From Rhytidiadelphus loreus (lineage: Eukaryota > Streptophyta > Bryopsida > Hypnales > Hylocomiaceae), in contig OX344764.1 in the NCBI GenBank assembly GCA_947034895.1, forward strand, positions 15,872,001 to 15,936,000: 64,000 nt of DNA, written 5' to 3'. The position numbers and the translations under genes are program-made. Below the pieces are notes generated by a model. That model made no database searches. It was not told the DNA's origin and was given only the letters and a program-made list of their open reading frames with translations. Below are positions 37,080 to 62,290 of this stretch, piece after piece. Numbering within the stretch: the stretch's first letter is position 1; every line of letters begins with the position of its first letter.

Positions 37080-37400
37080 GGGCGCGTACGGGTAGGAGAC
37101 TGCGGGTAGGGGCGACTGCGGGTGGGCGACTGCGGGTCGACAAGGGCGATTGCGGGTGGGCGACTGCGGGTGGACGAGGGCGACTACGGGTGGGCGACTG
37201 CGGGTGGGCGACTGCGGGTTTGGCAGGGAGACCGCGGGTTCAGGAAGTGTTCTTGGGTGGGCGACCGCGGGTGCGCAAAAGGTACCCAGACCCGGTGGTG
37301 GACCCGAAGTCGCCCAATTTGGACCCGTTGTCGCCCTCTCGAGACCCGCTGTCGCCCTACCCAAACCCGCAGTCGCTGGATATGCAGTTGCCCTATCCGT
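37080..37400. repeat. GC-rich array A1, inverted halves
   Basis: About a dozen forward units GGGCGACTGCGGGT (37080-37275) are followed by about six reverse units ACCCGCAGTCGCC-like (37300-37395). The gene-proximal half has the reverse orientation. It ends about 195 bp before the start codon of the gene at 37593. ORFs read across it are artefacts of the repeat. Confidence 0.9.
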
Positions 37401-37502
37401 ACTCGCCCCCCTAGACCGAAGTCACTCGCCCTATATAGCCAGTAGCCCATCATCATGCTATCACCTTCATTTTCCATTGAGGCTTTCTGTCTTGCAACCT
37501 TT

Positions 37503-37521
37503 GTTGGCTGCATGCGTGACC
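37503..37521 (+). promoter_or_regulatory. Shared leader motif, copy 1
   Basis: TTGGCTGCATGCGTGACC matches the motif GTGGCTGNATGCRTGCC seen upstream of four other genes here. It lies 72 bp upstream of the ATG. Confidence 0.6.
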
Positions 37522-37592
37522 CTTTTGGATAATATATATACTATTTTTTGCTATCATTTGGTTCTTAGAATTTTGCGACGTCCGCAAATCTC

Positions 37593-40100
37593 ATGGCAAC
37601 TGGAGGTAGCAGTGATGGGTCCCTTCCGGGTTTTTCCACTGTACGCACTCTTGGTGCAATTAGGAAGGCTGCCAAAGACAAGACTAGAAAAAGGAGGGGT
37701 AACATTCACAAGAAGCGATGGCATGTGTTGAACAATGATAACCACCTAGCTTTCAAAGAGTGGAACGAGGAGCCAGAGCCTTGGAGTATGCAAGTGTGCG
37801 AAGACTACATTGAATGGTGTCACATCGGGAAGTTCTTTCCGGCATGGCGCCATCATCACAACCGACACAATAACAAGGCAAATTTGAAGTATTGTGAAAA
37901 TCCAGCTTTCATACGAAGGTGTTTAGAATTGTGGCAGGTCCTCTACAAAACCCCTTTTGTAGATAGGAATGAGGCCTCTTTGTTCATTGCTAGAGGTGCC
38001 TATGCTGAGGTCGCCTTGAACAAACAGGTTGACTGGACCACGATCAAAGAAAGTACCTACGTGGAGCATCCAGAAGTTGGAATAATTCCAAGAGGGGTTC
38101 TGAAATTTCCAGAGGGTGGACTTGGGCCTTTTCGAAGTCATCCACAAAACAAAGAAACTCAAGAGGTGGACACGGAAGAATCAGAAGAGGATAATGATTC
38201 AGATGGCACACGGATTCCTAAGCTTGTACGAGTGAAGGAGCAGATTATCACCCCGGTCCAAGTTCTAGTTCCAGTTCCAGTTCCAGATCCAAATGTTCAA
38301 GCCGCTTCATCATCACGGGGAAAGAAGATGAAACATCCTGCCAAGGTGCGACGGTCCACCACGAAAATTAGATTGGCATCAGCCTCAACCACAATTGCGA
38401 CTCCAATCTTGCCACCACAAGACGCCAGCAACGTCTTCGACTTTGCTTTAAGTGACGACTCGCCCGTATGTGCCACAAGTCACATTCCCATTCCACAGTC
38501 TGAATCTGATGTTGTTCACAATGCGATGACGTTGGCGAAGGCTCTCGACCTCTTGAAGACCAAGGATGCACAAATTGCAACCTTAGAAGGTGATGTGAAG
38601 AAATGGCGGTCTACATGTGAACAAAAAAATGCTCTCATTTCTCAACAATCCAAAGAATTACAAGGCCTTCGAGAAAAAGAGCGTCAGACTTTCACATTGT
38701 CGGACATGGACGAAACCTTTGTTGAGCAGGATCCACATTACTTGGACAAGCTTATTGGGGACCTCATCAGCGATGTCATTCACCTTTCTCCCCCTGCCAA
38801 GCGTACGAAGCGTTCTTCAATTCTTCCAATGGCACCACTTCCGTTCGTCTCAAGAGATTCTAGCAATCCGCACGTTGATGGTTTGCAAGGGACTCAGGAT
38901 TCACTTTCGTTTCCTGCCATTCTACATCTACAATCATCAAAGAAACTTGATTTGGCTGAGGAAAATAGAATGCTTCGAGAGAAGTTGGCAGTGTTGGCAG
39001 CGACATACTATCATTGGAAGGTTGCGTGCATTCTCTCTGTGGATTGATCTCAACAAGTTGCGAAAGAGCTAGACAAAGTTTCGAAGAACTTTGTAGCAAA
39101 TGCCCCTAAACAAGAGAATGGATTGACATCATGGGCATTGATGGAGGACATGTTTCCGGATAACATGTCCATGCTTGACGTGGCGGAAAAAAATGTCATA
39201 GACTGGGCACAAAATGGTTGGGACCATGGAAATCAGATGTCTAGTCACTTCAACGAAAAAGACCAAAGTCTATTGTGGCCAAAGCCAGCTCATTTCGTCT
39301 TGGATCATACCAAATGCCCCATATGTCTAGAACAATTTGGGCCAGAAGGAGGATGGGCACTTGGATCATGTACACATGTGTACCATCCTCAGTGTCTCAT
39401 CACTCAATGTCTGATTAGACGACGAAGTGTGATTTGTGCAGCACCATTCCATGATCGCTTGTATACCATGTTCAACTTGATGACTTACATGCCACCTTCT
39501 TGGGAACACAATAGAGACACGACGGCAGAGACACGATTTTGGGGACGAGACTTGCTTTGGAGTTGGCAAGAAGGCCTACATGATCAAGAAATGGGAGCTG
39601 CTGCCTCACAATTGAATTGGGAAACGGACCCGCGTGAAATTCTAAGAGTGGCATTCAACCTTATGGGAAAAGGAGCTCACAATGTAGGGAAGAGGGCGTT
39701 TTTTTTTCAATGCCTTGGTGGATATTTTGATAAGACATCCCAAACCTTCAAGTGGGGTGCTCATCCGAAAGGACACCGTTGGAATTTTGAAGGTGAACAA
39801 GGGGCTAATCGTGATGAAAATGCCACTCCAGAAGACTTGAATAGTATGGCTTACCTCGACTCAACATACGGGCCTTATTATCAAAGCCAAGCACTCGATT
39901 ATCTATTGGAGTTACACTCTCCGCAAACTAAAAGGACACTTGAAGCTCTCAAGAACTCCAATGTCTTGGAATCTATTTTAGAAGCAGATGGACCTGCTTC
40001 AAGGACTCGTGCTAAGAAGAAACTCGTTGTTGGAGAGTCCAATGATTACGAACAAGGTGCAACGAGTGGTTCTCAGAACAATCCAATGGACTTGAACTAA
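37593..40100 (+). CDS. WCHI-family protein with RING-like finger; in-frame TGA
   Basis: The frame runs 836 codons from ATG 37593 to TAA 40100 with one TGA at 39045-39047. Residues 1-45 are basic. The family domain spans about 52-150: EPEPWS, DYIEWCHIGKFFPAWRHHHN, NNKANLKYC and FIRRCLELWQVLYK, with conserved His and Cys that could bind metal. A linker and coiled coil follow (about 330-480). After the stop the same frame continues SQQVAKELDKVSKNF, still coil-like, then a RING-like finger CPICLEQF ... CTHVYHPQC, whose last ligands are unclear. RING fingers usually mark ubiquitin E3 ligases. The TGA may be a CGA-to-TGA mutation, or two proteins are made. Paralogous N-terminus to the genes at 43.3 and 52.6 kb. 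Function unknown. Confidence 0.75.
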
Positions 40101-41769: not shown

Positions 41770-43259
41770 CTAAGCATTTTTTTCACTATTCACAAAGTCA
41801 CTTTCTTTGGGCTCCGGTCTCATTCTTTGAAGTTCCGCACGGGTGGCACCTATGCCTTCATAGGCCCACTTGCGCCATTCCTTAAAATAAAGGATGTGGC
41901 GCTCCAAGTCCAATATGCCCTCGTGCAACAACTCTTGTTTTTTCTCCAGTAGCTTCACCAAATAAAAAAGCGTTGCTCTTTCTTCTGTATTGCTACCATA
42001 ATCCGGAGCTAAAGCCAAGATGCCCTCTTTTTTGGCTTCTTTTAAGGCATCATCATAATATTCCATCTCTAGCTCACGTATTTGAAGATTCAAGCTTCTC
42101 CTTTCGCTTTGATGGGACCATTTATCACGTTGCAAAAGATCAAGTTTATTTTGAAGCACCGCTAAATCATCGGAAATGTGTGCTCGCCCATCTTCGATCT
42201 TCTTGAAATAATTTACTCTACTTTTGTTTAACTTAGAGTAAATCTTCTCATTTTCAGCAATGGCGTTTTCAGTCGCCTCTAACTCCTTCTTCAACCCATC
42301 CACAACAGTTGGATTCACTGGAAGATGTTGTACCTTCTCTTTCAAATTCATAAGATCCGCTACTGTTGAAGTCAAAGCTGCTCGTGCACTTTCGATCTTA
42401 GTGCCCAACATCTCCAAATTGTCTTCCGAATCATTGTCACTGCTTCCGCTAGACCCAATGTCTGCACCAGAACGGTCCACATTGATCGGTACATGAACAT
42501 CTTCGCTTTGTTTTTGAATCTTGGACAATGATTGCGGCTCCTCAAACTTCCTCTTGCCCTTCTTGTCAACTTGAACGTCTTCAGCCGCCTCTTGTTTTTC
42601 TTTGCCAATGTCTTCGTCGTCACTCTCAAAAGAGTATCCATCGTATTCGTGAGTGTGCTCATCTGAGCTAGAAGTTGAAGACCATTGAACTTGGTCATCA
42701 CCAACAGCCAACTTGCCAAGCTTTGCCTCTAAAAGCTTCTGATTTGCTTGAAGAAGTCCTTCTTCATCCAGCACTATCGGTCTGTCCGGGCGGTCACCGA
42801 TAGGAAGCTCCTTCAAGGTTGTCCAATCTACCTTTTTCTTCAATTGAACTTCAACGTACACCATTTGCACAAGATAGAAAGAGAAGTTGTCATTTCGATA
42901 AGGCTGGGACTCCAAATAGAGTTGCTGCCATACCTCCAAACACCTTCGCTGGAAGACAACACTCTTGCAGTAAGCCAAATTTGCCTTATTAGACTTCACG
43001 TGCAAAGGTGTCGCCAAAACAGGAACAACTTGTTGATGTGGCACCAATCCACATATTTGTTTACAATTTCATATGTCCAAGGCTCTGGTTCTACTTCCCA
43101 TCCCAAAAAGGCCTTCATCTTTGGATGCAACAAGATGGGTACACGCTTCTTGCGAGGTTTGCCGCTCCTTTTACGATCCTTGTCACGAACCGCCTTTTTG
43201 TTGAGCCGAAGTCGGTATCTTGACATACCGTGTGGCGGTTGAGAGTCCTCGCCCTCCAT
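41770..43259 (-). pseudogene. WCHI-family gene with one frameshift
   Basis: ATG at 43259 (MEGEDSQPPHGMSRYRL); an upstream in-frame GTG also exists. The basic N-terminus is followed by EVEPEPWTYEIVNKYVDWCHINKLFLFWRH. There, at about 43020-43025, the frame shifts by one base; the other frame continues HVKSNKANLAYCK and FQRRCLEVWQQLY. Alignment with the 37.6-kb paralog shows a single missing base. Downstream are an acidic Ser-rich linker (SSTSSSDEHTHEYDG) and a long coiled coil (DLMNLKEKVQ, LAVLQNKLDLLQRDKWS), ending SDFVNSEKNA. Without the shift the protein would be about 496 residues with no RING. Either a recent pseudogene or an assembly error. Array A2 lies upstream. Confidence 0.75.
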
Positions 43260-43480: not shown

Positions 43481-43524
43481 TGCACGCATTTAGCCACGTC
43501 AGCAGGTGAAAGACAGTGCGCAGA
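43481..43524 (-). promoter_or_regulatory. Shared leader motif, copy 2
   Basis: Read on the minus strand: GCGCACTGTCTTTCACCTGC, then GTGGCTAAATGCGTGCA. It lies about 225 bp upstream of the start codon. Order and spacing are as in the copy at 47398. Confidence 0.75.
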
Positions 43525-43544
43525 ATGCCAGGGAAAATTTAATG

Positions 43545-43965
43545 GCGACTGCAGGTGGAGGAGAACGCTGATGTACCCGAGGTCGCCTTGGGGCGCGTGC
43601 GGGTCCTGAAGTGGGGCGAGTGCGGGTCAGCCCAGTGCTCCAGGGCGACCGCGGGTTCGGAAGTGGGGCGACTGCGGGTCAGCGCAAGTGCTCGAGGGCG
43701 ACCGCGGGTCCTAGAGTGGGGCGACTGCGGGTCTGGACAGGTGCTCCAACGCGACCGCGGGTCGAAGGAGCCCGGGCGAGTGGGCGACCGCGGGTCCAGG
43801 GCGACTTCGGGTCCAGGGCGACTGCGGGTCCTAGGCGACCGCGGGTCCAGGACAACCACGGGTCCACTTTGCGAAGGCGACCGCGGGTCCTCGGCGACCG
43901 TGGGTCCTCGGCGACCGCGGGTCCTTGGCGACAGCGGGTCCCAGGCGACCGCGGGTCCATCTATT
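43545..43965. repeat. GC-rich array A2
   Basis: About 20 forward units around GGCGACCGCGGGTCC, with spacers of 2-20 bp (for example after GTGCTC). Read from the minus-strand gene to its left, the units are ACCCGCGGTCGCC, the same gene-relative orientation as the other arrays. Confidence 0.9.
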
Positions 43966-45714: not shown

Positions 45715-47307
45715 TTACAAAGGTGAGTCTCGGAACACCAATTCGGGGGGCATCATGGACCATGGTGGAGACATAAGGGAATTTGTGATCTCTATACACG
45801 TTGGTCTCTTCTTTGGGTCAGTGTTCACGAGTTCACGCAACTTCATTCCAAAGTACATTGATCCCTTGCGGTTCTTGAACAAATCCTTGTCCCAATCGTC
45901 CATATCACCAATTCTCATCCATTCGGTCAACTTCCCAATAGAATACGAGTCTGACTGTTGCGTATATTTATACCGTTGTTGCATGATCGGTATGCTTGTA
46001 TCGGAATTTGGAGGTCCATATGCATAAAACAACTCCGGGGCAACCCACCAACGACCTTCTCGGTATTGATCCCTCTCGGCCTCAGATGGCTTTCCAAAAT
46101 GTGAAGGCGCGTTTTCGTCAAAACGACTTGATATTCCAAAATCACAAATTCCAATGTTGATTATGTCGTTTGAATAATCCGGAAAATGCAACATGATGTT
46201 CATGGGAGACAAGTCATTGTGTAGCACGCGGCACTTGTGCATGAGATTTGTCACATATACTAAAGCCCATGCCAACTTTGCCTTGTGCCTTCGGAAGAGA
46301 CCAAGTTCTTTTTGTTTCTCTTCAGGAAGTCTTGTGGCTTTTTGCATTTCATGCCAGTCAATGGTTGGTGATACAGAACGATCTAAATGCCTCAACTCAT
46401 TCAAATGGCCCCCATTCCACCACAAAGTGTACGCTTCATTCGTGCGAGAATGAATGGCAAAAAACTTAATGATGCCAGGGTGGTTCAAGGGGCATGCAAG
46501 GGCCTCCATGGATCGTTGCGCTCTCCCCTCGCGCGGGTTTATTGCCTTGGATACTTTCCCAGCAAAAGCGATGTAGCTTGGAATTGTATCCATTCCTTCA
46601 ATGCGTACCTTACGCACTTTTGCATACCCCCCTTCACGTTCAAAAGCACTAAGGGGCACCACTTTCGCCGTATCGGGGATCCACGTGATACACAATCCAC
46701 CATCTCGTGCAAATGCTACCTGCACCGCTGCATTTTTCCACTTAAAACCCCTTGCCGAGCCTCTTGCCAATTTCTTCACTGCGCTGGACCACCACTCCAT
46801 TTTTTGGCGGAATGCCTTGATGTCTTCTGATTCCTCTACTATCGGAAGAAACGGTCGATGTTCCTCCATCAATTTCTTGGTATTGAACATCACCGCTTTC
46901 AATGTGTTATCAAGCCATTCAAATAGTCTCGAAGAATATGTCAAGTCAATGTCTGCGAAATCATCGGATCCCTTTAGCTTGGTTAAAATCCGTGCTTGTA
47001 AATCGTTTGGCAAGGCCACACTACCAGTTGTAGGACACCTCAAATAGCTTGCCTCCAAGAATTGTATACTTTTCCCTGCGTACCACTGGAGACACGCTTC
47101 GTATGCATATCGGGTATAACTCGGGGGAGGATAGTTGGAGTCCTTGTCATGTGCTGACTTCTGCTTCTTGCCCTTCCGTCGCTCTTGACTCCCTCCTTCT
47201 TCGTTTTCATTTACAGCTATCGGAACCTCGAAAAAAATTGGATCATCGAGGTCCAGATTCCATAAAGACTTTCTCCTTGTAGTGTTGCCTTCATGTGGAA
47301 AAGCCAT
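45715..47307 (-). CDS. Divergent protein-kinase-like protein
   Basis: Intact 530-codon, intron-less ORF from ATG 47307. The basic N-terminus (RRKGKKQK, about 43-50) precedes a unique region with WYAGKSIQFLEASYLR (about 75-90). A kinase-like C-lobe is clear: VLHNDLSPMNIML (361-373), ICDFGISSRF (387-396) and the WWVAPELF activation-segment end (420-427), then a RPTCIEI helix near 501. The catalytic HRD is HND here, keeping the Asp; DFG and APE are kept. The N-lobe is weak: the ATP-binding Lys could be in FAGKVSKAI (248-256), and no clear Gly-loop is seen. It may be an active atypical Ser/Thr kinase or a pseudokinase. Array A3 and the shared leader motif lie upstream, as for the WCHI genes. Confidence 0.8.
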   Translation of the reverse strand: MAFPHEGNTTRRKSLWNLDLDDPIFFEVPIAVNENEEGGSQERRKGKKQKSAHDKDSNYPPPSYTRYAYEACLQWYAGKSIQFLEASYLRCPTTGSVALPNDLQARILTKLKGSDDFADIDLTYSSRLFEWLDNTLKAVMFNTKKLMEEHRPFLPIVEESEDIKAFRQKMEWWSSAVKKLARGSARGFKWKNAAVQVAFARDGGLCITWIPDTAKVVPLSAFEREGGYAKVRKVRIEGMDTIPSYIAFAGKVSKAINPREGRAQRSMEALACPLNHPGIIKFFAIHSRTNEAYTLWWNGGHLNELRHLDRSVSPTIDWHEMQKATRLPEEKQKELGLFRRHKAKLAWALVYVTNLMHKCRVLHNDLSPMNIMLHFPDYSNDIINIGICDFGISSRFDENAPSHFGKPSEAERDQYREGRWWVAPELFYAYGPPNSDTSIPIMQQRYKYTQQSDSYSIGKLTEWMRIGDMDDWDKDLFKNRKGSMYFGMKLRELVNTDPKKRPTCIEITNSLMSPPWSMMPPELVFRDSPL

Positions 47308-47397: not shown

Positions 47398-47445
47398 GGC
47401 ATGCATCCAGCCACCTGAAGGTAGGTGAAAGACAGTGCGCAAGGC
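47398..47445 (-). promoter_or_regulatory. Shared leader motif, copy 3
   Basis: Minus strand reads TTGCGCACTGTCTTTCACCT, ACCTTCAG, then GTGGCTGGATGCATGCCC. It is about 90 bp upstream of the kinase-like start codon. This is the clearest copy. Confidence 0.8.
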
Positions 47446-47504
47446 TAAAGTAAGGTGAGAATCGGAAGTGGGGCTAACGCTTAAGTACCCGAAGTTGCCT
47501 CAGG

Positions 47505-47975
47505 GCGCGTGCGTTTGGGTGACTGCGGGTCTGAAGTGAGGCGACTGCGGGTCTGAGGAGGGGCGACTACGGGTCTGAAGACAGCGGGAATGGGCGACTG
47601 CGCGTTTTTGGAGCGTTGAAATGGGCGACTGTGCATCAAGGGCGACTGCGGATCGTGGGCGACCGCGGGTACCAACTAAACCATCCCGAAACTTGCACAC
47701 GCGGTCGCCCACAAAGAAGTCTCTTCGACCCGCAGTTGCCCCCTACGCGCAGTCGCCCCACTGGAGATTGAGTTTGCATTTTCCAAAAAATCAGTCTCCC
47801 TCCTTGACCCGCAGTCGCCCCCTACGCGCAATCACCCTACTGGAGATTGAGTTTGCATTTTCCAAAAAATTAGTCTCCCTCCTTGACCCGCAGTCGCCCC
47901 CTATGCGCAGTCGCCCTGATTCAAATGTGTTTTTTGCTTCGTCGATAACCCGCGGTCGCCTCTGACCCGAGTCGC
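47505..47975. repeat. GC-rich array A3, inverted halves with higher-order repeat
   Basis: Forward units GGCGACTGCGGGTCTG (47505-47675) face reverse units ACCCGCAGTCGCCCC (47700-47975). In the reverse half a longer unit of about 85 bp repeats: CTGGAGATTGAGTTTGCATT plus TCAGTCTCCCTCCTTGACCC. Confidence 0.88.
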
Positions 47976-48144
47976 CCTAAACCAACAACCAATCTGACCC
48001 AACACTAATTAGCATCTGCAGCATATTCTAATTGATTTTTCCTTATCTCACATCCAAAATTGGTAATAAATGTTAGGCGTCAGTTCATATCAAAGACATA
48101 GCAAGGCAATGGAAGAATTATTCTCACAATGTGAAGGGTTTCCC

Positions 48145-48175
48145 AAACCCTAAACCCTAGACCCTAGACCTTGGA
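48145..48175 (-). repeat. Short telomere-like run
   Basis: CCCAAACCCTAAACCCTAGACC carries two to three AAACCCT units, an interstitial telomere-like or telo-box sequence. Confidence 0.5.
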
Positions 48176-48281
48176 AAACAATAATACAACTTTTATCTAG
48201 AATCAAATCCTTAAACCTACATAAAATACTTACACATCCTACACGAGATGTAGTGTTTTAGACCTAAAACAGAATCATGTC

Positions 48282-48617
48282 TTTTTTGTCTTGTTGAATT
48301 TGTAAACAAAATGGAGGAAGTAACATATGATTAAAGGAAATTAGAAACAATAAGGGAGAGGTCCCAAAAAAAACACCATCTCGTGAAACATGCCCAAATA
48401 AATCTAATTACACCTCCCCACTATTAGAATGTACATAAAACTTTCATTTGGAACTTCTTGCCAAAGGAGTGTTGGAGAGCTAATGCAAAACCTAGGATTT
48501 GTTTGTCTTGTTGAATTTGTAAACAAAATGGAGGAAGTAACATATGATTAAAGGGAATTAGAAACAATAAGGGAGAGGGGTCCCAAAAAAAAATTAATCT
48601 TGTGAAACATGCCCATA
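48282..48617 (+). repeat. Direct duplication of about 118 bp
   Basis: TTGTCTTGTTGAATTTGTAA ... CTTGTGAAACATGCCCA occurs at 48282-48397 and 48501-48613, nearly identical, separated by about 100 bp. The second copy abuts array A4. Confidence 0.85.
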
Positions 48618-49270
48618 CCCGCAGTCGCCCAAAGTGCAGTCGCCCTAGAACCCCAGGTCTGATTTTGGAAGTGATCTGGGGACCCGCAGTCGCCCTGATG
48701 GAAGGGGGGAGATTGCATTTTCGAAATTTCTGGTGTCTCCCACCTTGACCTGCAGTCGCCCCCTACGCATGGTCGCCCTGATTGAAGGGGGGAGATTGCA
48801 TTTTGAAATAGTTAGGTTGCTCCCACCTTGACCCGCAGTCACCCCCTACGCGCAGTCGCCCTGATGGAAGGGGGGAGATTGCATTTTCGAAATTTTTGGT
48901 GTCTCCCACCTTGACCCGCAGTCGCCCTGATAGAGGGCGGAAAAGTATTTGGTGTCTCCCTCCCCTTCTATATGGGCAATTGCGCGTAGGGGGCGACTGC
49001 GGGTCAAGGAGTTTGCATTTTCTCCTTGACCCGCAGTCGCCCCCTATGCGCAGTCGCCCTGATGGAGGGGGGATTTTGAAATGTGTTTCCCCCTCGAGGA
49101 CCCGAGGTCGCCTTGACCCGAGGTTGCCCTCACCCGAGGTCGCCCTTGAAAGACACGAGGGATCCTTGGACCGGACCCGCGGTCGCCCCACGCGCAGTCG
49201 CCCCATGCGTTGTCGCCCTAGTATCCGTGTTAGGGTTAGCGCATGCGCCCCTGGCGACCGCGGGTATTTC
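48610..49270. repeat. GC-rich array A4, mostly reverse, with higher-order repeat
   Basis: Units ACCCGCAGTCGCCC are interspersed with a larger unit of about 85-100 bp, GATGGAAGGGGGGAGATTGC...GGTGTCTCCCACCTTGACC, seen about four times between 48690 and 48960. Isolated forward units occur at 48970-49010 and 49253-49266. It lies upstream of the multi-exon gene at 49.8 kb in the standard gene-relative orientation. Confidence 0.88.
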
Positions 49271-49318: not shown

Positions 49319-49352
49319 AGTTCACCTACCTTGTAGTGGCTGAATGTGGGCC
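49319..49352 (+). promoter_or_regulatory. Shared leader motif, copy 4
   Basis: AGTTCACCTACCTTGTAGTG then GGCTGAATGTGGGCCC, matching TTTCACCTACCTT and GTGGCTGNATG of the other copies. Confidence 0.65.
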
Positions 49353-52034: not shown

Positions 52035-52330
52035 TCCCGCCCTGTACCCACAGTCGCCTACACGCGGTCGCCCCACCCGCGGTCGCCCCACCCGCGGTCG
52101 CCCTACTCGCGGTCGCCCCACTGTAGGGGTCCAGAAATTACTCTGTGGTGCCCCACATGCGGTCGCCCATCCCCAGTAGCCCCAGACCCACAGTCGCCCT
52201 ACCCGCAGTCGCCCTACCCGCAGTCGCCTTCGCAGTCGGCCCTTAGACCCGCAGTCGCCCTACCCGCGGTCGCTCTCAGACCTGCACGCGTCCCTTCCCG
52301 CACTCGCCCCAGGGCGATTGCGGGTTAATT
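52035..52330. repeat. GC-rich array A5
   Basis: About 16 reverse units ACCCGCGGTCGCCCC / ACCCGCAGTCGCCCT, some directly abutting (52065-52120), ending in one forward GGGCGATTGCGGGT (52311). It lies about 225 bp upstream of the ATG at 52554. Confidence 0.9.
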
Positions 52331-52377
52331 AGCTGTCTCCCCACCCGACTTCGCCACTTTCCCTTCTTGCTGCATAC

Positions 52378-52416
52378 TGCCTTTCACCTACTTTACAGTG
52401 GCTGATTGCGTGCCAG
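52378..52416 (+). promoter_or_regulatory. Shared leader motif, copy 5
   Basis: GCCTTTCACCTACTTTACAG followed by TGGCTGATTGCGTGCCAGG. It is about 140 bp upstream of the start codon. A telo-box-like GCGGTTTAGGGTT follows at 52501, matching one at about 43300 upstream of the 43-kb paralog. Confidence 0.75.
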
Positions 52417-52553: not shown

Positions 52554-54161
52554 ATGGCGGACCACAAGAAGAAGACCAAAGCAAAAGGAGCCATGCACCC
52601 TAGGCAACGACGCATCCTTTTGGACCCAGCGTGTGTGGCCTACCGAGGTTGGGATCGAATTACGGGCCACTAGACCGCCAAGACTTGTAAGTCCTTCGTG
52701 GGGTGGTACCACATCGACAAGTTATTCCCCTATCATCGGCACTACACGAATCGGCGCAACAATACGGCCAATTTGCATCCATGCCGTAATGATGCATTTG
52801 TGCAACGTTGTATTGAAATTTATCGATACTTGTATGGCACATATTCAGTGCCCATGAGCGAAGTCCCGTATTTCATATGTGCAATGGTGTATGCGGAACT
52901 CATTTTGTTTCGAAGCGTGGATTGGAGTTCAATCAAGGGAGTGAAGCATGCTCGCCTTCCACCGACAAAAGACATCCCAAGGGCGGCTCTATCTGCCAAT
53001 CCACGTGAAGGGCTAGGCCAGAAGAAAAACTTGAAGGAGGGAGTGCCCGATGAGCAGTTTCATTGGACGTCATCTGATTCATCTTCGGGAGAGGAAGACA
53101 ACCTTGGTGAAGACCCTCCAATGCAGCCCCAAAACATGGCGATGGTGGCTTCTACTTCACAAAATTTACCTCCCCCGAGAATGGAAGAAGAGGGTGAACC
53201 AACTAGGCAACCACAAAATCTTGATATTTTGCCTCTTGCTATGGTGAATCCGATTACAGTCCCTCGCACTGAAGAAGACGAAGTTTTGCAGTATGTGCTT
53301 GCATGCATGCAAGAAGCAGAAGATGATGTTTTTTGGACAGAGATGGAAACAGAAGAAGATGTGAAGCCTTCTTTGTTCCAATTGGATTGTGTTGATGACA
53401 TATACCGAAGTGAGGAATTTGTTGAAGATGGAACTGTCCCTGACACAGTAATGTTGGACACCAAAATTGTTTACAAAGCTCAACTCAAGAAGCTTCTAAA
53501 TGAGTTGGATGAAAAGCATCTAGAATGTGAGAAGCTTCGCAATCAAGAAATGCAAACTTTGAGTGGAGATATTGTGAATAGCTTACGTGCTGAACTTGAA
53601 AGTCGGCAAGTTCTTTTGTCAACGCAAATAACAAAGATTTTAGACTTGGAAGCATTTTACCTTAGATTCTCTTCTCGGCATGCTGGAGGATCTAGTTCTT
53701 CTAGCAATGAGTTTGCGAAAGAACGGCTTGCCAAAATTATGGAAGCATGCAAGCTGGAGGAAGATCAGATAGACTTGGAGAAGCGAGGGGTGGAAGAAGC
53801 ACGATCAAGATTAAATTCCTTGAAAGCATTAAAGGACAAAGCCCCCCTTGACCGTGTTGCAGAAATGTGTGGTTGGAAAGACATGGCTACTAAACAAGCA
53901 TTGTCTCTTACGGAAGTAGTTGACTTGAAAAGGAAACTTGGGGTTTCTTTGTCATTGGATCCAAAATTGGAAGAACATCGGGATGCACTGAAGGCGCTTT
54001 TGAAGTTCCAAAAATCATACAAGCAATTTTGGTTGGAAAAGAAGTTGGGGAAGGATGACCGATACCTTAGGAATTTGCAGTTGGAAGGTAGGAAAGTCTT
54101 GTATGAGATGGAACGTGAGGCTCATGACCGCAAAGAAAAGGCCAAAATGGATGTTGAATGA
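52554..54161 (+). CDS. WCHI-family coiled-coil protein; in-frame TAG
   Basis: ATG at 52554 (MADHKKKTKAKGAMHPRQRR) opens 536 codons, with one TAG at 52671-52673. By exact alignment with its paralogs (EPWT, 11 residues, then DW) the TAG replaces a conserved Trp, a TGG-to-TAG change. The family domain continues VGWYHIDKLFPYHRHYTNRR, NNTANLHPC, FVQRCIEIYRYLYG. An acidic linker follows, then long coiled coils (KKLLNELDEKHLECEKLRN; EEDQIDLEKRGVEEARSRL) and a basic end. The C-terminal half matches the partial gene at 63.5 kb (FYLRF, GGSSSSSN, AKIMEAC). Function unknown; the basic and Cys/His-bearing N-terminus with coils suggests a DNA- or RNA-associated dimer. The single TAG may be a recent null mutation. 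Confidence 0.75.
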
Positions 54162-54639: not shown

Positions 54640-54905
54640 GCAGTCGCCCGTTCCTGGACCCGAAGTCGCCCATTACTAGACCCGCAGTCGCCCGTTCCTG
54701 ACCCGCAGTCGCCTGTTTCTGGACCCGCAGTCGCCCATTACTGGGCCCGTGGCGCCCACTTCTGGACCCGCAGTCGCCCACTCCTGGACCCGCAGTCGCC
54801 CACTTCTAGACCCGCTGTCGCCCAATCTTGGACCCGTAGTCGCCCATCACCTGACTGATTTCAGGTTTTTGGACCCGCATTCTCTCATGGGGCGACCACG
54901 GGTCC
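54640..54905. repeat. GC-rich array A6
   Basis: About 11 reverse units GGACCCGCAGTCGCCCA with 2-6-bp spacers (TTCCT, TTACT, TTCT), then one forward GGGGCGACCACGGGTCC at 54890. It lies about 250 bp upstream of the hAT gene start at 55155. Confidence 0.9.
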
Positions 54906-55154: not shown

Positions 55155-57536
55155 ATGGTTGGACAAGGTGTTGGGAGGGGGGGGACCATGAATAATACGT
55201 GGAGGTCCACAAAGGATTGGGACCCTTGGCTAGTACCGTGTACCCCAATTGATAATTCCCCCCATGCTCGAAAATGCGTGTTTTGTGGGTGGAGCAAAGC
55301 ATTTGTACGAAAGAGAGCATTGATTCACTTTGGCTATGGCGGCTCGACTACATCGGAGCGTTGTAAGGAGATCCCTAGAATTGTACGAGAAAAGTTTCGG
55401 ACTGGCGAGGGGCAAGTTCCAAGGTCCATGAGTTACGAAGAGATGTATGATGCACCGACTAGACATGATGCACCAGTTAATGTTGCAGAGTCTATTGTCG
55501 CACCTGCGTTGGATGTCGAAGAAGAAGGGTCTCTCAATCCCTTTAAATCAAATGCAAGACCAAATCCTACGCTTGATTCAGTAGATTCTACTGGAACAAC
55601 GCTTGAGAGAAGGAGGAACATGCCATCTGTTTCTCGGCAAAGAAGCATGGATGAATCATTACAAATGGGCCGCAGACAAGAGTTGGATAGGTTGTGGGCT
55701 TCTTTCTTTTACGAGGCGAACATTTCATTTAATGTTGTGCGCCACCCGGCCTTCATGAATGCTGTTAAACAAACTGCAGCAGTTGGATTCGTGTACCAAC
55801 CGCCACCGTATAATGCGATTCGCACGAAAATGATAGATGTTAAGAAGGCATCGGTTGAAGCCATGGTCTCGGAGCGGACGAGGGTTTCAATAAGTCAGTA
55901 TGGAGCGACAATTTGTTCAGATGGTTGGTCCGATACTAATTCGCGGCCGTTACTAAATATGATGTTGGTGTGTCCCGCCAGGGATGTCTTTTTGGGATCA
56001 GTGGATAGTACTGGGGAGAAGAAGGATATATCTTACACGACTGAGACGATGGCACGATACATTGAGGAAGTTGGGCCTACCAACGTTGTGCAATTGTGTA
56101 CGGACAATGCTGTAGTCATGACGGGGGCGATGGCAAGGTTGGAAGAAAGGTACCCTCACATTTATAGCCAGGGTTGTGCGGCACACATTTTGGACTTACT
56201 CTTAGAAGACTGGGGAAAGGATCAGAGAGTAAAGGAGTTGGTAAAAAAGGCTTCATCAATTGTGAAGTTCATCAAGAAATACCAACATACTTTGGCGTTG
56301 TTTCAGAGATTTTCACCAAACAAAGTGTTGAGACTTCCAAGCAAAACACGTTTTGCCACAAATTTCTTGATGATTGATCGTTTGGTAGACTGCAAGCAAG
56401 CAGTGCACAACGTGACACTGGATGAGACATACATGACGTTTGAGTTGAGTTTGCAAAACCGCAAAAATGGACATTTCATTATGGGCAAGGCCAAACTTGC
56501 AAGGCAAGATATCCGTTCAAAAGAGTTCTGGGTTCAGTGTGACAATTTCCTCCATATGATAGAGCCTGTGCTGCTTTGTCTTCGTCATTTTGATGGAAAA
56601 GTCCCGGCAATGCCAAAAGCTTTAGTAATGATGACAGCCTTGAAGGAGCACATTTATTCTCTCAAGAATGCTCCATTTTTCCTTGATCCAGTGGTGGCAA
56701 CACGATATGAGAAACAATTTGATGCTCGCTAGAAGTTGATGATTACTGACCTACACTATGCGGGGGCACTACTAAATCCATACTTGAGTGACGTGGAGGC
56801 TATTCATAACAATGGCTACGCGAAGGGAGCTTTGAATCGAGTCATACGAAAACTGAGCGTACCATTGAACGTGTCAGTGGTGGAAGCAATGTAGGAGCTA
56901 ACTCAATTTGAAGAGAAGACAGGTGCATTCGATCCTTTACATGAGGCTCTCGATATCATTGAATGTCAATTATTGCCTCATCAATGGTGGAATCGTGTGG
57001 GGGGCAATGCTCTTCCAAAAATTGCAAAGCAAATTCTCGGTTTAACGTGCTCTGCATCTTCGTGTGAAAGGAATTGGAGCATGTATTCCTTTGAGCACAA
57101 TAAAGTGCGAAACCGCTTGGCCACGACAAAGGCAGAGACATTGGTGTATATCTACGCGAACAACAAACTTGAACGTCAAAAACGTGGACACAATCCAGCC
57201 ATTTTTTACGACCAGATGCTTGCAGATGGAGATGATGAGGACGAGCGTGATGGGCCTTTGTCTTCAGGGGAAGAAGACGACGTTGTTCCATATTTTATGA
57301 GAGAACGCAAGAACCGCAGGGATGAAAAGGATCGGTTGCGCAACAATCCTTGGAATGCAATGGTTAGGCCGCCACATAGTCCTCCACGACCAGGGTTGTC
57401 TTGTCTGACAGAATTTCGAGTTTTTGTGTCTAATAGACGTCGCATGTCGCATGTCGAATTGTCGAGTTGTCGAGTAAGGGCGGTTTTTGTTGTCGTGTAC
57501 GGATTTCGGATTTCAAATTTTTTTACCCCTTGGTAA
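55155..57536 (+). pseudogene. hAT transposase (DUF659) gene with two in-frame TAGs
   Basis: The ATG at 55155 (MVGQGVG) aligns with the start of the intact paralog at 61591. It shows a BED-type finger (CVFCGWSKAFVRKRALIHFG), DRLWASFFYEANISFNVVRHP, and DUF659 with CSDGWSDT and CTDNAVVMTG. The C-terminal dimerisation domain has LPHQWWNRVGGNALPK and CSASSCERNWSMYSF. The catalytic D, D and E are kept. TAGs at 56730-56732 (replacing the Trp of DARWKLM) and near 56892 break it; between and after them the frame is open. After about 57390 homology to the paralog stops where CAGGGTTGTC begins, so the 3' end looks cut by an insertion. The remaining codons to 57536 are unrelated. Confidence 0.88.
57391..57480 (+). 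mobile_element. Putative hAT-like terminus interrupting the hAT gene
   Basis: CAGGGTTGTCTTGTCTGACA starts exactly where paralogy of the hAT gene ends. Subterminal repeats GTCGCATGTCGCATGTCGAA and TTGTCGAGTTGTCGAG follow, and array A7 begins about 185 bp inside. The flank is TCCACGAC (57383-57390). No partner end or second TSD was found in the window. Confidence 0.5.
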
Positions 57537-57574: not shown

Positions 57575-57780
57575 CTGAGGGGCGACCGCGGGTAGGGGTG
57601 ACCACGGGTAGGGGCGACCGCGAGTAGGGGGGCGACCACGGGTAGGGCGACCTCGGGTCCAAAATCCTAGGCGACTGCGGGTCCGAATCCAGGGCGACCG
57701 CAGGTTCGAAGTCCAGGGCGACTGCGGGTCCGAAATCCAGGGTGATTGCGGGTCCGAAATCCAGGGCGACCGCGGGTCCT
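57575..57780. repeat. GC-rich array A7
   Basis: About 11 forward units GGGCGACCGCGGGTAG / GGGCGACTGCGGGTCCGAAATCCA. It is the only array not upstream of a gene start; it lies downstream of the broken hAT gene and inside the putative terminus at 57391. Confidence 0.9.
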
Positions 57781-57784
57781 ACTT

Positions 57785-58303
57785 CATGGGCTACAAGTCT
57801 GGGGCCCCCACAACATTTTTTTTCCAATATTTATTCTTCAACCAACATATTCCACGGCAAATCGGCAATATATAAGCATTGAATTATATGCTCGGTACGT
57901 ACCAAAGCAAATGAACATGCATTATGTAATGATATATCATGGGACAATCAATTCATAAGCCTAAAACATAATAATAATAAAAACCTTGGACAATAATCAT
58001 ATTAATTTAAATGGAACTGCGTACATACATAGGGATGATCTTCACAATTGAGTACCAAGACCACTCCTGTTTGAAATTGCACACTTATTTGCAAAAAATA
58101 CGAATACCTTCATTAATCATCATCGTCAACACCAAAGTACCTTTTACAATCTTCCTGACTTTGTGAAGCCAAGTGATGGACTACACAAAATTCAAAATCT
58201 ACCTATTTCATTACAAGCTTTGGCAACAAATCTTCACTACAAGGCATTGATGTTAAATCCTTATAGTACTATTTGAAGGCCTCTACATCTATAATGCAAC
58301 ACA
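57785..58303. other. Intergenic, no gene seen
   Basis: AT-rich 3' flank of the minus-strand hAT gene. No ORF or repeat recognised. Confidence 0.45.
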
Positions 58304-61300
58304 TTACATTGTGAAGGTAGAATCGCTTTCCGCTTCATCTGCATTGGGGTGGGTGTCTTCATGTGGCCCACTACTGTCACTAGCTCCTGAGACCTCGTTT
58401 TCATCATGCTCTCTGCTTGTAGGTTGAAGGATCACCTCACGTTCCACCTCAGAGTTCAAATTTCGCACTTGTGTTTCTAAACCACCAACAACTTTGGCTA
58501 GCACTAATCGCTTTGTCAGTCTCGATGCATCAGTGGTTCCATTGATAATAGGGCCTGTCGGTCGCTCAAGCACCTGCTGCCCAACATGTTGACGCTCTGC
58601 TCTCGCTGCTGCGCTTGATGGCCAAGGATTACGAGTGGAATTTCGTTCTCCAATGACAAATGGATGGATCGCATGGTTTTGACGCTTGGGGTTCCGTGTC
58701 AGTCTGTCTTGCGTCTTGCGGGTTCGTTTATTTCTTGATTTGGAGTGTTCACGCGATCGCCTGGATGATTCTCCAGAGCCTGACATCAACGAGGCCGGAG
58801 TAGGTTGTGGAGCTGAGCCATGAACTCCTTCATCAACGATTTGTCGTAGATCATTATGTGTCGGCGACCTTGTTAGAGGAGTTGGTACTATCCTCGATGT
58901 TGTGGCAATGTCTACACTTGCAGGGCGATTGGACCCACGGGTACGAGTCTCGTTGAATACCACTTGCAATGGCGCATCTGAATCGTACACCCTAGTTTCT
59001 GTTGCAGTGTTGTTGGTCGGTGCTAAACTTGGACGAACTGCAGGTACCTCTTCAATATGCGACACCTCTTCTTGCCTTTCACCCTGTACATTAACTCGTA
59101 CACCACTTTGGAGGTTCATTGGCATACTAGGCGGCAGACATGTGGCAATTGGAGACCTTACAAGCTCCACTTCATCTGCCACTGGAATATCTGCACCGTC
59201 ATTGTTGTCATCAGGAGTTCTTTCCCTCGTTGGGTCTGCATTGATTACCGGAAATGCATCCCAAGCCGATACATGAGGGGCTTCGTCTCTGCGGTGGTGC
59301 GACGCCTCTGGAGAGCTCAATCCATCATCATCACCCACGAAAGTGTTGTGGTATCGTCCTCGTGGAGGACTACCTACACGGGGCACCATACCAGCCCACC
59401 TATTTCCACGGAGGCGTTCTTCTACTACCACACGTCTCTGTTCTTCTCTCAAATCTCTAAACCTAACTTCATCTTCGTCCTCCGAAGAATATGGTTCTTC
59501 ATTCTCTTCATCTGTATCTCCATCTACAAGGTACTTTTCGTAGAATAGTACTGGATTGTGTCCTTGTTTTTCACGTTCCAATTTGTTGTTGGTGTAGATA
59601 TACACCAACATCTCAGCCTTCTTTGTGGCTAGGCGATTACGCACTTTATCGTGTACAAACGAATACATGCTCCAGTTTCTTTCACAAGATGATGCTGAGC
59701 ATGTCAAAGACAAAACTCTCCTTGCTATTTTTGGAAGAGCGTTCCCATCCACACGATTCCACCATTGATGAGGCAACAAGTTACATCGAGTAACATCTGG
59801 AGCCTCTTGTAATGGATCAAAGGGACCCGACTTCTCTTCAAATTCCGTCAACTCAGCAATTGCTTCATCTTCATCCACATTCAATGGTCCGCTCAATTTT
59901 CTGATGACTCGATTCAATGCCCGCTTTGCCTCTCCATTGTTATGAAGCTCTTCCACATCTGTCAAATACGGGTTCAACAATGCCCCTGCGTAATGGAGGT
60001 CCGTGCGCATCAACTTCCAACGAGCATCAAATTGTTTTAGGAACTTCGTCGCGGTCTGCTCATCAAGAAAGAACGGAGCCTCTTTTAAAGTGCACACGTG
60101 CTGACGAAGGCTACTCATTATTATCCAAGCTTTCGGCATCGCCGGTATTTTGCCATCGAACTGGCGCAGAGCAAGAATCACTGGAAGAACCATGTGCTGG
60201 AAATTACCGCATTCCACCCAAAACACTTCCGAAACTATGTCCTCTCGCGCTTTACGGGCCCGCTCTCTTGTAATGAGTCCGTTTGTTCTGCTGACCAAAC
60301 TATTCTCAAATGGCATATACGTCTCGTCCCCCACCACGAATTGAAGCGCTTGTTTGCACTCTACCAAACGGTCTATCATGAGAAAATGCACTGCGAAGCG
60401 TGTGGCCGCGGGAAGTCTCAATGACTTCTTCAGCGAGTACTTACGGAAGAGACCCAAAGTCAAGTGGTACTTCTTTATAAACTTCACAATTGCCCTGGCC
60501 TTATCCACTAGATCTTTGATCCTTTTTTCCTTTCCCCAGTCTTCCAAAAGTAAGTCCAATATATGTGCGGCACATCCTTGCGTATACATGTGGGGATACC
60601 TTGCTTGCAACTCGCGCATTGACCCTGTCATTACGGAAGCATTGTCTGTACACAATTGGACAATATTTCCTGGTCCCACCTGCTCTATGTAGGTAGCCAT
60701 TGTATTCACCGTATACGCCATGTCTTTCCTCTCTCCTGTAGTGTCCACCGATCCCAGGAAGACATCACCCGCAGGGCAAACGAGCATCATATTCAACAAG
60801 GGACGGTGATTTGTATCTGACCATCCATCTGAACAGATAGTGGCTCCATATTGGGTAATAGAACTCTTTGTTCGACTACTGACCATTTTCGTAACAGCCT
60901 CCTTCTTCACATCAAGTAGTTTAGTGCGCACCGCATTGTACGATGGCGGGGAATATGGAAATCCACATGTCGAAGTTGCTTTCACAGCATTCACAAAGGC
61001 TGGGTGCCGCACCACATTGAATGCAATGTTAGCCTCATAAAAGAAAGAAGCCCATAGTCTGTCCAAGTTTTGTCTTTCATTGACCCGGAATGATTCATCC
61101 ATGCTTTGTTGACGAGAAGTCGAGGTTGAGCGCATCCTTCTCACCGTCACAGGAGTAGAATTCGTTGAATCTGGATTACGAGGCGGTGCATTAGGTGCTT
61201 CTGTCCTGTCGCTTGGGTCCACAGACCCTTCCACTGATGCATCCACAGTATACCCTGCAACGGACTCAGCAACAACATCAACCTCAAGATCTACTCCATG

Positions 61301-61591
61301 CATCTCCTCCAAACTCATTTCTTTTGGTACAATCCCTTCACAGTTTCTGAATAATTCGAGGACTACGGATGGAATACGTTTACAACGTTCCACTGTTGAT
61401 GTACGGGGGTAACCAAAGTGACCAAATGCCCGCTTCCGCACGAAAACTTTGTTCCAACCACAAAAAATACAAGTCCTCGTATTTGCGGAACGAGCGGGGT
61501 TCATTTCAATAACCAACCAGGGATCCCACTCCTTTGTGGCTCTTCGAGTATCATTTATGTTCGTCCTCCTCCCCGCTCCTCGGTTTGCCAT
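58304..61591 (-). CDS. Intact hAT transposase, DUF659 type, with long C-tail
   Basis: 1095 codons, no intron, ATG at 61591. BED-like zinc finger: C41, C44, with His near 58 and C70. DUF659 covers about 180-370. The hAT RNase H-like catalytic residues are visible as D255 (CSDGW), D316 (CTDNA) and E637 (SSCERNW). The Dimer_Tnp_hAT region is about 600-680 (LPHQWWNRVDGNALPK, VRNRLATKKAEMLVYI). It would cut and paste elements with matching TIRs, leaving 8-bp TSDs. Residues 680-1095 are an unusual extension: acidic stretches, Ser/Arg-rich low complexity (SGSGESSRRSREHSKSRNKR) and a short coil (KVVGGLETQVRNLNSEVERE). It could be active, or a domesticated DNA-binding protein. Array A8 lies upstream. 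TIRs for this gene were not identified. Confidence 0.93.
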   Translation of the reverse strand: MANRGAGRRTNINDTRRATKEWDPWLVIEMNPARSANTRTCIFCGWNKVFVRKRAFGHFGYPRTSTVERCKRIPSVVLELFRNCEGIVPKEMSLEEMHGVDLEVDVVAESVAGYTVDASVEGSVDPSDRTEAPNAPPRNPDSTNSTPVTVRRMRSTSTSRQQSMDESFRVNERQNLDRLWASFFYEANIAFNVVRHPAFVNAVKATSTCGFPYSPPSYNAVRTKLLDVKKEAVTKMVSSRTKSSITQYGATICSDGWSDTNHRPLLNMMLVCPAGDVFLGSVDTTGERKDMAYTVNTMATYIEQVGPGNIVQLCTDNASVMTGSMRELQARYPHMYTQGCAAHILDLLLEDWGKEKRIKDLVDKARAIVKFIKKYHLTLGLFRKYSLKKSLRLPAATRFAVHFLMIDRLVECKQALQFVVGDETYMPFENSLVSRTNGLITRERARKAREDIVSEVFWVECGNFQHMVLPVILALRQFDGKIPAMPKAWIIMSSLRQHVCTLKEAPFFLDEQTATKFLKQFDARWKLMRTDLHYAGALLNPYLTDVEELHNNGEAKRALNRVIRKLSGPLNVDEDEAIAELTEFEEKSGPFDPLQEAPDVTRCNLLPHQWWNRVDGNALPKIARRVLSLTCSASSCERNWSMYSFVHDKVRNRLATKKAEMLVYIYTNNKLEREKQGHNPVLFYEKYLVDGDTDEENEEPYSSEDEDEVRFRDLREEQRRVVVEERLRGNRWAGMVPRVGSPPRGRYHNTFVGDDDGLSSPEASHHRRDEAPHVSAWDAFPVINADPTRERTPDDNNDGADIPVADEVELVRSPIATCLPPSMPMNLQSGVRVNVQGERQEEVSHIEEVPAVRPSLAPTNNTATETRVYDSDAPLQVVFNETRTRGSNRPASVDIATTSRIVPTPLTRSPTHNDLRQIVDEGVHGSAPQPTPASLMSGSGESSRRSREHSKSRNKRTRKTQDRLTRNPKRQNHAIHPFVIGERNSTRNPWPSSAAARAERQHVGQQVLERPTGPIINGTTDASRLTKRLVLAKVVGGLETQVRNLNSEVEREVILQPTSREHDENEVSGASDSSGPHEDTHPNADEAESDSTFTM

Positions 61592-61654
61592 ATTGTTTAT
61601 CTGATATGCGTTATTCCAAACCGAAACGTATATGTACCCAAGTGCTTCGGAAAA

Positions 61655-61755
61655 AAAAATTATGACAAAGCCACCGCTTCGAGTAGTTTTCTAACCACTC
61701 AAAGCAAGGTTGTTGCCCTCTGAAGAATATAACATTGCATGAAGCCTCTTGAGAA
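61655..61755 (-). promoter_or_regulatory. Leader shared by the two hAT genes, copy 2
   Basis: Minus strand reads GAGGCTTCATGC, TTCTTCAGAGGGCAACAACC, then GAAGCGGTGGCTTTGTCATA, parallel to 54985-55090. Confidence 0.75.
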
Positions 61756-61879
61756 GATCCAAGCCATATGTTCATCAACAGAGCAATGGAAATCCAATGT
61801 TGTTCCTCTACATTTATAGTGCTTTCGGTCTTCCCTCCACACGCTCCAAGGATGGTTTTAGGGCGCCGCTACCAAACTC

Positions 61880-62290
61880 TATTACACCCGAGGTCGCCCT
61901 ACCCGACCGCTGGTCCACCTCCAGGCATATGGAGGCGCGCGCCTTTGCAGTAGTCGACTTCGGATCACATGGTGCGAACGCGGGTTCCGGCAGGCGACTT
62001 CGGGTCCGAAATAGGGCGAACGCGGGTCTAGGGAGGGCGACTTCGGGTCCAGGTGGGGCGACTTCGGGTCCAGGGGGGCGACTTCAGGTCCAGGGAGGGC
62101 GACTTCGGGTCCAGGGAGGGCGACTTCGGGTCCCGGATGGGCGACTTCGGGTCTCAGACGGGCGACTTCGGGTCCCGGATGGGTGACTTCGGGTCTCAGA
62201 TGGGCGACTTCGGGTCCCACATGGGCGACTTCGGGTTTCATGGGAGACTTCGAGTGCCATGGGCGACCTCGGGGGAAAGAAGGGCGACTT
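61880..62290. repeat. GC-rich array A8
   Basis: About 20 forward units, mostly GGGCGACTTCGGGTCC, with regular alternation of spacers (CAGGGA, CGGAT, CAGAC) at 62080-62230. Here TT replaces TG in the core. Read from the minus-strand hAT gene the orientation is the standard one. Confidence 0.9.

Follow-up and report, generated by a model that had tools for sequence, protein, structure and literature searches.

Genes and repeat arrays at the locus

We analysed a window of 64,000 nucleotides from Rhytidiadelphus loreus (Bryopsida, Hypnales; assembly GCA_947034895.1, contig OX344764.1, positions 15,872,001 to 15,936,000 of the forward strand), in which eight GC-rich arrays of a short repeated unit, designated A1 to A8, lie between 37.1 and 62.3 kb among genes of three coding families, WCHI, protein kinase and hAT. 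All positions given below are those of the window. Six open reading frames (ORFs) are supported, namely WCHI1, WCHI2, WCHI3, the kinase gene, hAT1 and hAT2, and the coding features of this region are as follows:

37593..40100, plus strand, WCHI1: ORF 37593-39044, TGA at 39045-39047, then a RING-finger ORF in the same frame at 39048-40097
41770..43259, minus strand, WCHI2, with a frameshift between 43008 and 42993
45715..47307, minus strand, protein-kinase-domain gene (domain by Pfam), open over 530 codons from the ATG at 47307
52554..54161, plus strand, WCHI3, interrupted by an in-frame TAG (52671-52673) and open from there to 54158
55155..57389, plus strand, hAT1, with DUF659 and hAT dimerisation domains (Pfam) and two in-frame stops
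58304..61591, minus strand, hAT2, with DUF659 and hAT dimerisation domains (Pfam), open over 1095 codons plus stop from the ATG at 61591
63481..63984, minus strand, C-terminal part of a fourth WCHI relative, whose start and promoter lie past the end of the window

The three WCHI genes are mutually related by sequence (44% of 93 codons for WCHI1 and WCHI2); none of them scored above the cut-off of a Pfam family, and NCBIfam returned two weak matches only, both to WCHI2. The RING finger in the ORF following WCHI1 was found just at the Pfam cut-off, and the TGA that separates the two ORFs may represent a lesion, the border of an intron or a site of read-through. hAT1 lacks roughly the last third of hAT2, and the homology between them ends 191 bp before A7. 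Comparison of hAT1 with hAT2 over 770 codons gave differences at 0.69 of synonymous sites and a ratio of nonsynonymous to synonymous change (dN/dS) of 0.16, indicating that both have been under constraint for most of their history; for pairs of WCHI genes, counting the fourth relative, the corresponding synonymous fraction was 0.67-0.92. Predicted structures were too poor for use, with a mean pLDDT of 41 for WCHI1 and 36 for hAT2. A PDB sequence search gave no match for hAT2 alone or for WCHI3, and the same search with the hAT alignment returned innexin-6 (E 0.019) and Hermes (E 0.22), neither of them convincing. A weak match to hAT2 residues 496-550 (31% over 55 residues, E 0.005) occurs on the plus strand at 58124-58288, between A7 and the hAT2 stop codon, and is perhaps the remnant of a third hAT gene.

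A multi-exon gene had been proposed at 49.3-51.5 kb by a first-pass annotation of the sequence. This proposal found no family support: of 60 ORFs with at least 28 amino acids, 10 pieces were tested and all fell short of the Pfam cut-off, two of them showing sub-threshold DUF matches. The region is therefore treated here as a locus, not as a gene, and nevertheless its promoter block is common to other promoters.

The core motif and its arrays

With up to 2 mismatches allowed, a 14-bp core, GGGCGACNNCGGGT, matched the window 117 times, and 116 of these matches fell in the eight arrays or at their edges, compared with a mean of 1.11 and a maximum of 4 in 100 shuffled sequences. When GGCGACNNCGGGT was searched at up to 1 mismatch, 58 plus-strand and 44 minus-strand matches were obtained, all in eight clusters (A1 to A4 at 37095-37377, 43544-43956, 47487-47960 and 48617-49265; A5 to A8 at 52046-52355, 54658-54903, 57581-57777 and 61886-62274), and five block shuffles contained 0 to 2 matches apiece. 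Outside the arrays, a weight matrix derived from the core matches detected no site scoring 12 or more and a single site scoring 10 or more. These results confirmed the positions of the eight arrays reported in the first-pass annotation. The unit of 14-17 bp described there was too narrow, as the periods range from 14 to 24 bp and longer compound units of, for example, 48, 53, 79 and 83 bp also occur. The constant part of the unit is the core, whereas the length and sequence of the spacer vary from array to array; the earlier notion that each array has its own consensus and expands locally thus holds for the spacers and fails for the core.

Taking D as ACCCGNNGTCGCC and I as its inverse, at up to 2 mismatches and read towards the gene, the arrays were resolved into the following segments:

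37080..37272, minus strand, A1 outer half, with 11 left-pointing units and the variant unit ACCCGTACGCGCCC at its end (37080-37093)
37302..37408, plus strand, A1 inner half: 5 units towards WCHI1, with a TATA-like TATATAG at 37432
43543..43956, minus strand, A2, array of WCHI2: 17 direct units, an inverted unit at 43575-43588, then one direct unit
47487..47670, minus strand, A3 inner half, kinase array: 6 direct units, inverted unit 47487-47500, variant unit 47503-47516
47697..47961, plus strand, A3 outer half: 7 units pointing right
48617..49265, plus strand, A4, 49.3-kb locus array: 15 direct units plus 2 inverted ones, the first internal (48991-49004) and the second terminal (49252-49265), with a variant unit at 49237-49250
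52046..52356, plus strand, A5, WCHI3 array: 12 direct units, inverted unit 52312-52325, then one direct unit
54658..54903, plus strand, A6, hAT1 array: 8 direct units and an inverted unit at 54890-54903
57580..57777, minus strand, A7, at the 3' end of hAT1: 10 left-pointing units
61886..62295, minus strand, A8, hAT2 array: 17 direct units and an inverted unit at 61886-61899

Position and orientation of the arrays relative to gene starts

The array edge, measured on the 1-mismatch clusters, lies 180-295 bp upstream of the start codon in all six supported ORFs, with distances good to 1-3 bp for WCHI1, WCHI2 and WCHI3. When eight arrays of the same lengths were scattered randomly over the non-coding DNA of 36.0-63.4 kb, all six starts had an array within 300 bp in none of 20,000 trials and within 400 bp in 3 trials. 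The count leaves out the 49.3-kb locus: seven arrays had originally been assigned to gene starts, an assignment that stands for the six supported ORFs and lacks coding support for the seventh start.

Read towards the gene, the layout is D17-I-D for WCHI2, D6-I for the kinase, D7-I-D8-I for the 49.3-kb locus, D12-I-D for WCHI3, D8-I for hAT1, D17-I for hAT2 and D5 for WCHI1. An inverted unit is the last or last but one at the gene side in six of the seven gene-facing arrays. The description of the units as oriented towards the gene was correct for the bulk of them in all seven of these arrays (A1 and A3 being split) and had missed the gene-side inverted unit, while the opposed outer halves that it ascribed to A1 and A3 were borne out by the 11 and 7 units pointing away.

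The outer half of A1 resembles an array belonging to a divergent promoter, and no leftward gene to go with it was recognised in the ORF list. To the left of A1, positions 36963-37010 are CG-rich and dense in GTCGC/GCGAC. Since the outer half of A3 has spacer sequence in common with A4 (a common compound unit, and 19 spacer 7-mers present in both, of 95 and 262 respectively), it probably belongs to the array of the 49.3-kb locus, and the two are probably a single array split by an AT-rich insert. A short run of telomere-like, TTTAGGG-related repeats occurs within this insert at about 48140-48170, near a direct repeat (48252-48396 and 48468-48615, 86%).

A second box, TATA elements and a variant unit

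A second box, GTGGCTGNATGCGTGCC, had five matches in the 64 kb at up to 2 mismatches, each on the strand of its gene and in the interval separating array and gene, with a mean of 0.02 in shuffled sequence. The five promoters are those of WCHI1, WCHI2, WCHI3, the kinase gene and the 49.3-kb locus:

37504-37520, plus strand, box of WCHI1, 2 mismatches
43481..43497, minus strand, box of WCHI2, 2 mismatches to GTGGCTGNATGCGTGCC
47398..47414, minus strand, box of the kinase gene, 1 mismatch
49336..49352, plus strand, box of the 49.3-kb locus, 2 mismatches
52398..52414, plus strand, box of WCHI3, 1 mismatch

In the four promoters carrying both elements, the distance from the inverted unit to the box is 90 bp (WCHI2), 85 bp (kinase), 83 bp (49.3-kb locus) and 85 bp (WCHI3). 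The hAT1 and hAT2 promoters are devoid of the box and show TATAAAG at 54920 and TATAAAT at 61818, respectively 235 and 227 bp from the start codon. The leader common to the two hAT genes begins 34-38 bp past the TATA element, the position expected of a transcription start site.

Matches to GCRYGCGCCC, at up to 1 mismatch, also revealed a variant unit. It is found close to the gene-proximal end in the WCHI2, kinase, 49.3-kb, WCHI3 and hAT2 arrays, and at the left end in A1. In A2 it reads ACCCGCACGCGCCC and lies at 43591-43604; in A5 it lies at 52280-52293, with one ordinary unit between it and the inverted unit.

Promoter kinship and coding kinship

The stretches from array to ATG were aligned locally in 21 pairs, with 300 dinucleotide shuffles per pair; the stretch of the 49.3-kb locus ends at 49456, which is not a known start codon. 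Blocks of marked similarity were found between WCHI2 and the kinase gene (69/89 identical, z 21), WCHI2 and WCHI3 (62/80 identical or 78%, z 19) and the kinase gene and WCHI3 (51/65 identical, z 16), each of them reached by 0 of 300 shuffles. The leaders of hAT1 and hAT2 share 100 of 129 positions (z 34), and the 49.3-kb stretch matched those of the kinase gene (30/38, z 7.8), WCHI3 (26/32, z 7.2) and WCHI2 (z 4.2). Significantly similar blocks stand beside the array in five of the seven promoters, or in four when a weak match between WCHI1 and the kinase gene is left out. Together with the association at six of six gene starts and the common internal architecture, these blocks support, within the window, the first-pass proposal of a cis-element common to unrelated coding families.

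The kinase promoter is nearer to that of WCHI2 than the WCHI1 promoter is, though WCHI1 and WCHI2 are coding relatives. On the strength of these alignments, promoters and coding parts have separate histories. The same discordance would be expected if the arrays were mainly a recombination platform, swapping or converting gene bodies downstream of a common promoter as described for the trypanosome 70-bp repeats (PMC4858185), and both the fixed orientation upstream of diverged gene copies and the end of the hAT1 homology shortly before A7 would fit. However, the conserved inverted unit and the box would need a promoter role in addition, and we consider recombination as the main function very unlikely. 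As the spacers differ between arrays, any long-tract exchange between them is not recent.

Sequence constraint on the core and the promoters

A conservation profile was calculated on 127 units from the eight arrays. Core positions carried 1.2-1.9 bits, apart from two central positions at 0.8, and flanking positions carried 0.01-0.36 bits, with the exception of the G directly before the core, which reached 1.05. The core scores are partly circular, since the units were picked by their core match; the preceding G played no part in the picking. Among the core bases other than G, A5 was kept in 125, T13 in 123 and C9 in 120 of the 127 units. Transitions at the two core CpGs (23/508) were not clearly commoner than at the other C/G sites of the core (22/635), and the observed/expected CpG ratio was 0.79-1.07 in the arrays and 0.14-1.04 in the flanks; these values give no sign of long methylation decay. 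The identity of the hAT1/hAT2 leader, set against the synonymous differences of 0.67-0.92 among paralogues, suggests conservation beyond the neutral level, and the WCHI2-WCHI3 promoter block, at 78% identity, contrasts with the synonymous divergence of the WCHI pairs in the same way.

Two explanations dispensing with a specific binding protein bear on these data. According to the first, the arrays would act through structure or CpG content only, as G-quadruplexes (G4) or as an unmethylated CpG island. G4 motifs occur in six of the eight arrays and the CpG ratio is near 1, as such an action would predict, but A3 and A6 contain no G4 motif (loops 1-7) and the non-G bases of the core are kept while the spacers drift. 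On these two observations the G-quadruplex was rejected as the sole cause, and a purely structural action is highly improbable; among the roles raised at the outset, a binding platform is favoured over a purely structural CpG or G4 element. According to the second, neutral minisatellites would have grown in a duplicated promoter and been carried along by gene duplication. GC-rich minisatellites are common, and the local homogenisation of the spacers is in agreement with such an origin. It becomes hardly credible in the face of a single core in arrays of differing period, upstream of genes whose synonymous sites are near saturation, and of promoter blocks common to unrelated families.

Array A7 and the search for transposon ends

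A7 carries neither an inverted unit nor a box and lies between the 3' ends of hAT1 and hAT2. As A7 faces A6 across hAT1, both arrays pointing inward, it best fits an explanation in which the arrays are the subterminal repeats of a hAT-type transposon family and the genes are transposase or cargo between array ends. Two of the genes are indeed relatives of hAT transposases with DUF659 and a C-terminal dimerisation domain, hAT1 broken and hAT2 open. hAT transposases are described as binding subterminal repeats (PMC10368747), and the ends of CACTA elements as carrying clustered repeats that are in part GC-rich (PMC2613891). Moreover, a pair of 13-bp inverted repeats, which has 2 mismatches and is flanked by 3-bp duplications, brackets the A6-hAT1-A7 segment at 54543/57884, with an overlapping register at 54544/57883; a pair of the bracketing type appeared in 1 of 40 shuffles.

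Nevertheless, the 3-bp pair is a single match from 42 unit-by-setting tests and its duplication does not have the hAT length, and the ten matches with 2-4 bp duplications include four pairs of array units. A search of about 470-850 bp on each side of six units detected no case of terminal inverted repeats flanked by an 8-bp or 9-bp target-site duplication, and an inward-pointing 3' array accompanies only one of the six genes, hAT1. The box with its fixed spacing is promoter-like, the arrays do not show the CpG depletion of a long-methylated element, and the coding divergence is old. Transposon ends, though the strongest of the alternatives considered, are on balance an unlikely explanation of the arrays. 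A7 may just as well have served a gene that was lost, in keeping with the missing last third of hAT1 and the point at which its homology ends. The co-dispersal suggested in the first-pass annotation is supported in part only: it agrees with the similarity of promoter blocks across families, whereas the 8-bp duplications with terminal repeats are missing from the searched ranges.

A putative promoter cassette and its candidate binder

We consider it probable that the arrays form the upstream portion of a cis-regulatory promoter cassette common to these genes, in which they provide clustered sites for one protein. The anatomy of this cassette, its restriction to these loci within the window and its conservation were observed directly. 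From its distal end, the cassette begins with 5-18 direct copies of ACCCGNNGTCGCC separated by variable spacers. Towards the gene-proximal end of the array, five promoters have a variant unit resembling ACCCGCACGCGCCC, or a similar GCGCGCGCC element, and in six of seven the last or last-but-one unit is an inverted site. Next comes either the box GTGGCTGNATGCGTGCC (WCHI1-3, kinase gene, 49.3-kb locus) or a TATA box (hAT1, hAT2). A 5' leader follows, with the start codon, in the six supported genes, at the distance from the array edge reported above.

Because unrelated families carry the same kind of promoter, control of the whole set by one DNA-binding protein is suggested. A single sequence-specific protein may bind the clustered sites cooperatively and co-regulate the set, and the inverted unit probably marks the gene-side boundary of the array or sets its polarity. 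As promoter similarity departs from coding kinship, the kinase gene might have acquired the cassette by an ancient promoter duplication or exchange, perhaps through recombination between arrays.

The hAT proteins encoded in the 37.1-62.3 kb stretch are the obvious candidate binders. The core contains GCG and CGG, and hAT-derived CGG-binding proteins usually favour CGG or CGC trinucleotides according to PMC8097297, in which the motifs of four hAT proteins also match their own subterminal regions. The N-terminal C-C-H-C pattern of hAT1 and hAT2 can be read as a BED-type finger. The binder could conceivably be a hAT protein with such an N-terminal zinc finger, for example hAT2, which would then regulate its own gene; hAT2 is a candidate and nothing more. 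In a wider form of this proposal, a hAT family, domesticated or still mobile, would run a regulon via former transposon-end sites, the arrays being a portable promoter cassette upstream of hAT, WCHI/RING and kinase genes that was exchanged among them, with the inverted unit positioning the core promoter. We regard this wider form as possible, though doubtful.

Several observations weigh against the cassette or its regulation by a hAT protein. As for the arrays, that of WCHI1 is without an inverted unit, that of the 49.3-kb locus holds a second, internal one, and A7 is upstream of no gene. The variant motif GCRYGCGCCC is weak when taken alone, since 10 of its 14 matches are in arrays, some of them in ordinary units, and the remaining 4 are in the GC-rich DNA at 27.6-28.6 kb. 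The similarity between the WCHI1 and kinase promoters is weak (z 3.1, with 7 of 300 shuffles as good), 13 of the 21 pairs are at chance, including WCHI1-WCHI2, WCHI1-WCHI3 and all comparisons of hAT with non-hAT promoters, and the hAT promoters have only the array and the inverted unit in common with the others. Four of the six supported genes are damaged, by stops in WCHI1, WCHI3 and hAT1 and by a frameshift in WCHI2, and part of the gene set may for this reason be dying. Pfam detected no zf-BED domain in hAT1 or hAT2 at E values up to 0.01, some of the hAT proteins reported in PMC8097297 bind AT-rich motifs, and the BED domain of Hermes reads AAGT (PMC10368747).

Comparison with known systems

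In regulon promoters with clustered homotypic sites, one site is likewise repeated many times immediately before the core promoter of several genes; the sites described here differ in being minisatellite units, in bulk directed towards the gene and mostly accompanied by an inverted unit at the gene side. The hAT subterminal repeats bound by BED fingers, as portrayed for Hermes (PMC10368747) and in PMC8097297, resemble the arrays in their clusters of short sites, in the CGG/CGC motifs of many of the proteins and in the presence of hAT proteins encoded nearby. Unlike those repeats, the arrays are also found before non-transposase genes, are located at promoters only, apart from A7, and are not accompanied, in the ranges searched, by terminal inverted repeats with 8-bp duplications.

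DAYSLEEPER, a plant hAT-derived protein, was found through its binding to Kubox1 in the Ku70 promoter (PMC8616336), and it offers the parallel of a plant hAT-derived BED protein with an upstream promoter motif (PMC8616336, PMC3499209). As presented in these sources, that case concerns one motif in one promoter, whereas here arrays stand at several unrelated genes and the binding is putative. The trypanosome 70-bp repeats (PMC4858185) are also proximal to a diverse gene set and their directionality has been studied; there the repeats are reported to serve recombination, while in the present case a conserved box lies at a fixed distance and the families are unrelated. The minisatellite of the apple MYB10 promoter (PMC11321683) is likewise a tandem repeat in a plant promoter, apparently of a single gene in the account given there, in contrast to a cassette common to unrelated families.

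Other features of the window

A virus-derived island was considered and rejected: scans of viral contigs, which are weak in that they reach close relatives only, detected nothing related to hAT2, to the WCHI alignment or to the kinase. The viral contigs contained no tandem core, and none of the 36 stretches fitting a pattern was confirmed.

According to Pfam, the window also encodes copia-type reverse transcriptase, integrase and zinc-knuckle ORFs, a HSP20 gene and a squalene-hopene-cyclase C-terminal domain, a combination that points to land-plant DNA. The cyclase domain is located at 28.8-29.4 kb, within a GC-rich region (27000-29400, up to 62%); the four ORFs beside it had no Pfam match, and no array of the core lies nearby. 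Two short GC-rich arrays of the GGGCG-GGAC type, unlike the main core, occur at 5195-5296 and 7096-7154, each preceded at a distance of about 70-80 bp by a copy of a 78% repeated block (4896-5122, 6796-7016), and the one at 7.1 kb has G4 motifs. A 220-bp unit forms 4.3 tandem copies, 97% alike, at 5449-6377. Related long imperfect palindromes are present in AT-rich DNA at 23840-24458 (89%) and 33341-33870 (71% over 33500-33870), possibly as a foldback-type repeat. A dispersed AT-rich repeat family occurs in both orientations at 22.9-23.8, 31.0-35.3, 40.5-41.6 and 62.3-62.9 kb, and also adjoins the 3' ends of WCHI1 and WCHI2. A Rfam scan of the window detected no RNA family.

Significance of the shared promoters

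An oriented cluster of sites is common to three coding families, WCHI, kinase and hAT, and a second box with its surrounding block is common to WCHI, the kinase gene and the 49.3-kb locus. To our knowledge, promoters of unrelated gene families rarely have more than short motifs in common. The promoter blocks are also better kept than the synonymous sites of their genes. No such system was found in print in a limited search of the literature. If a local hAT protein does bind the core, the locus would represent transposon-end recognition turned into a regulatory network, with the donor protein and its targets side by side.

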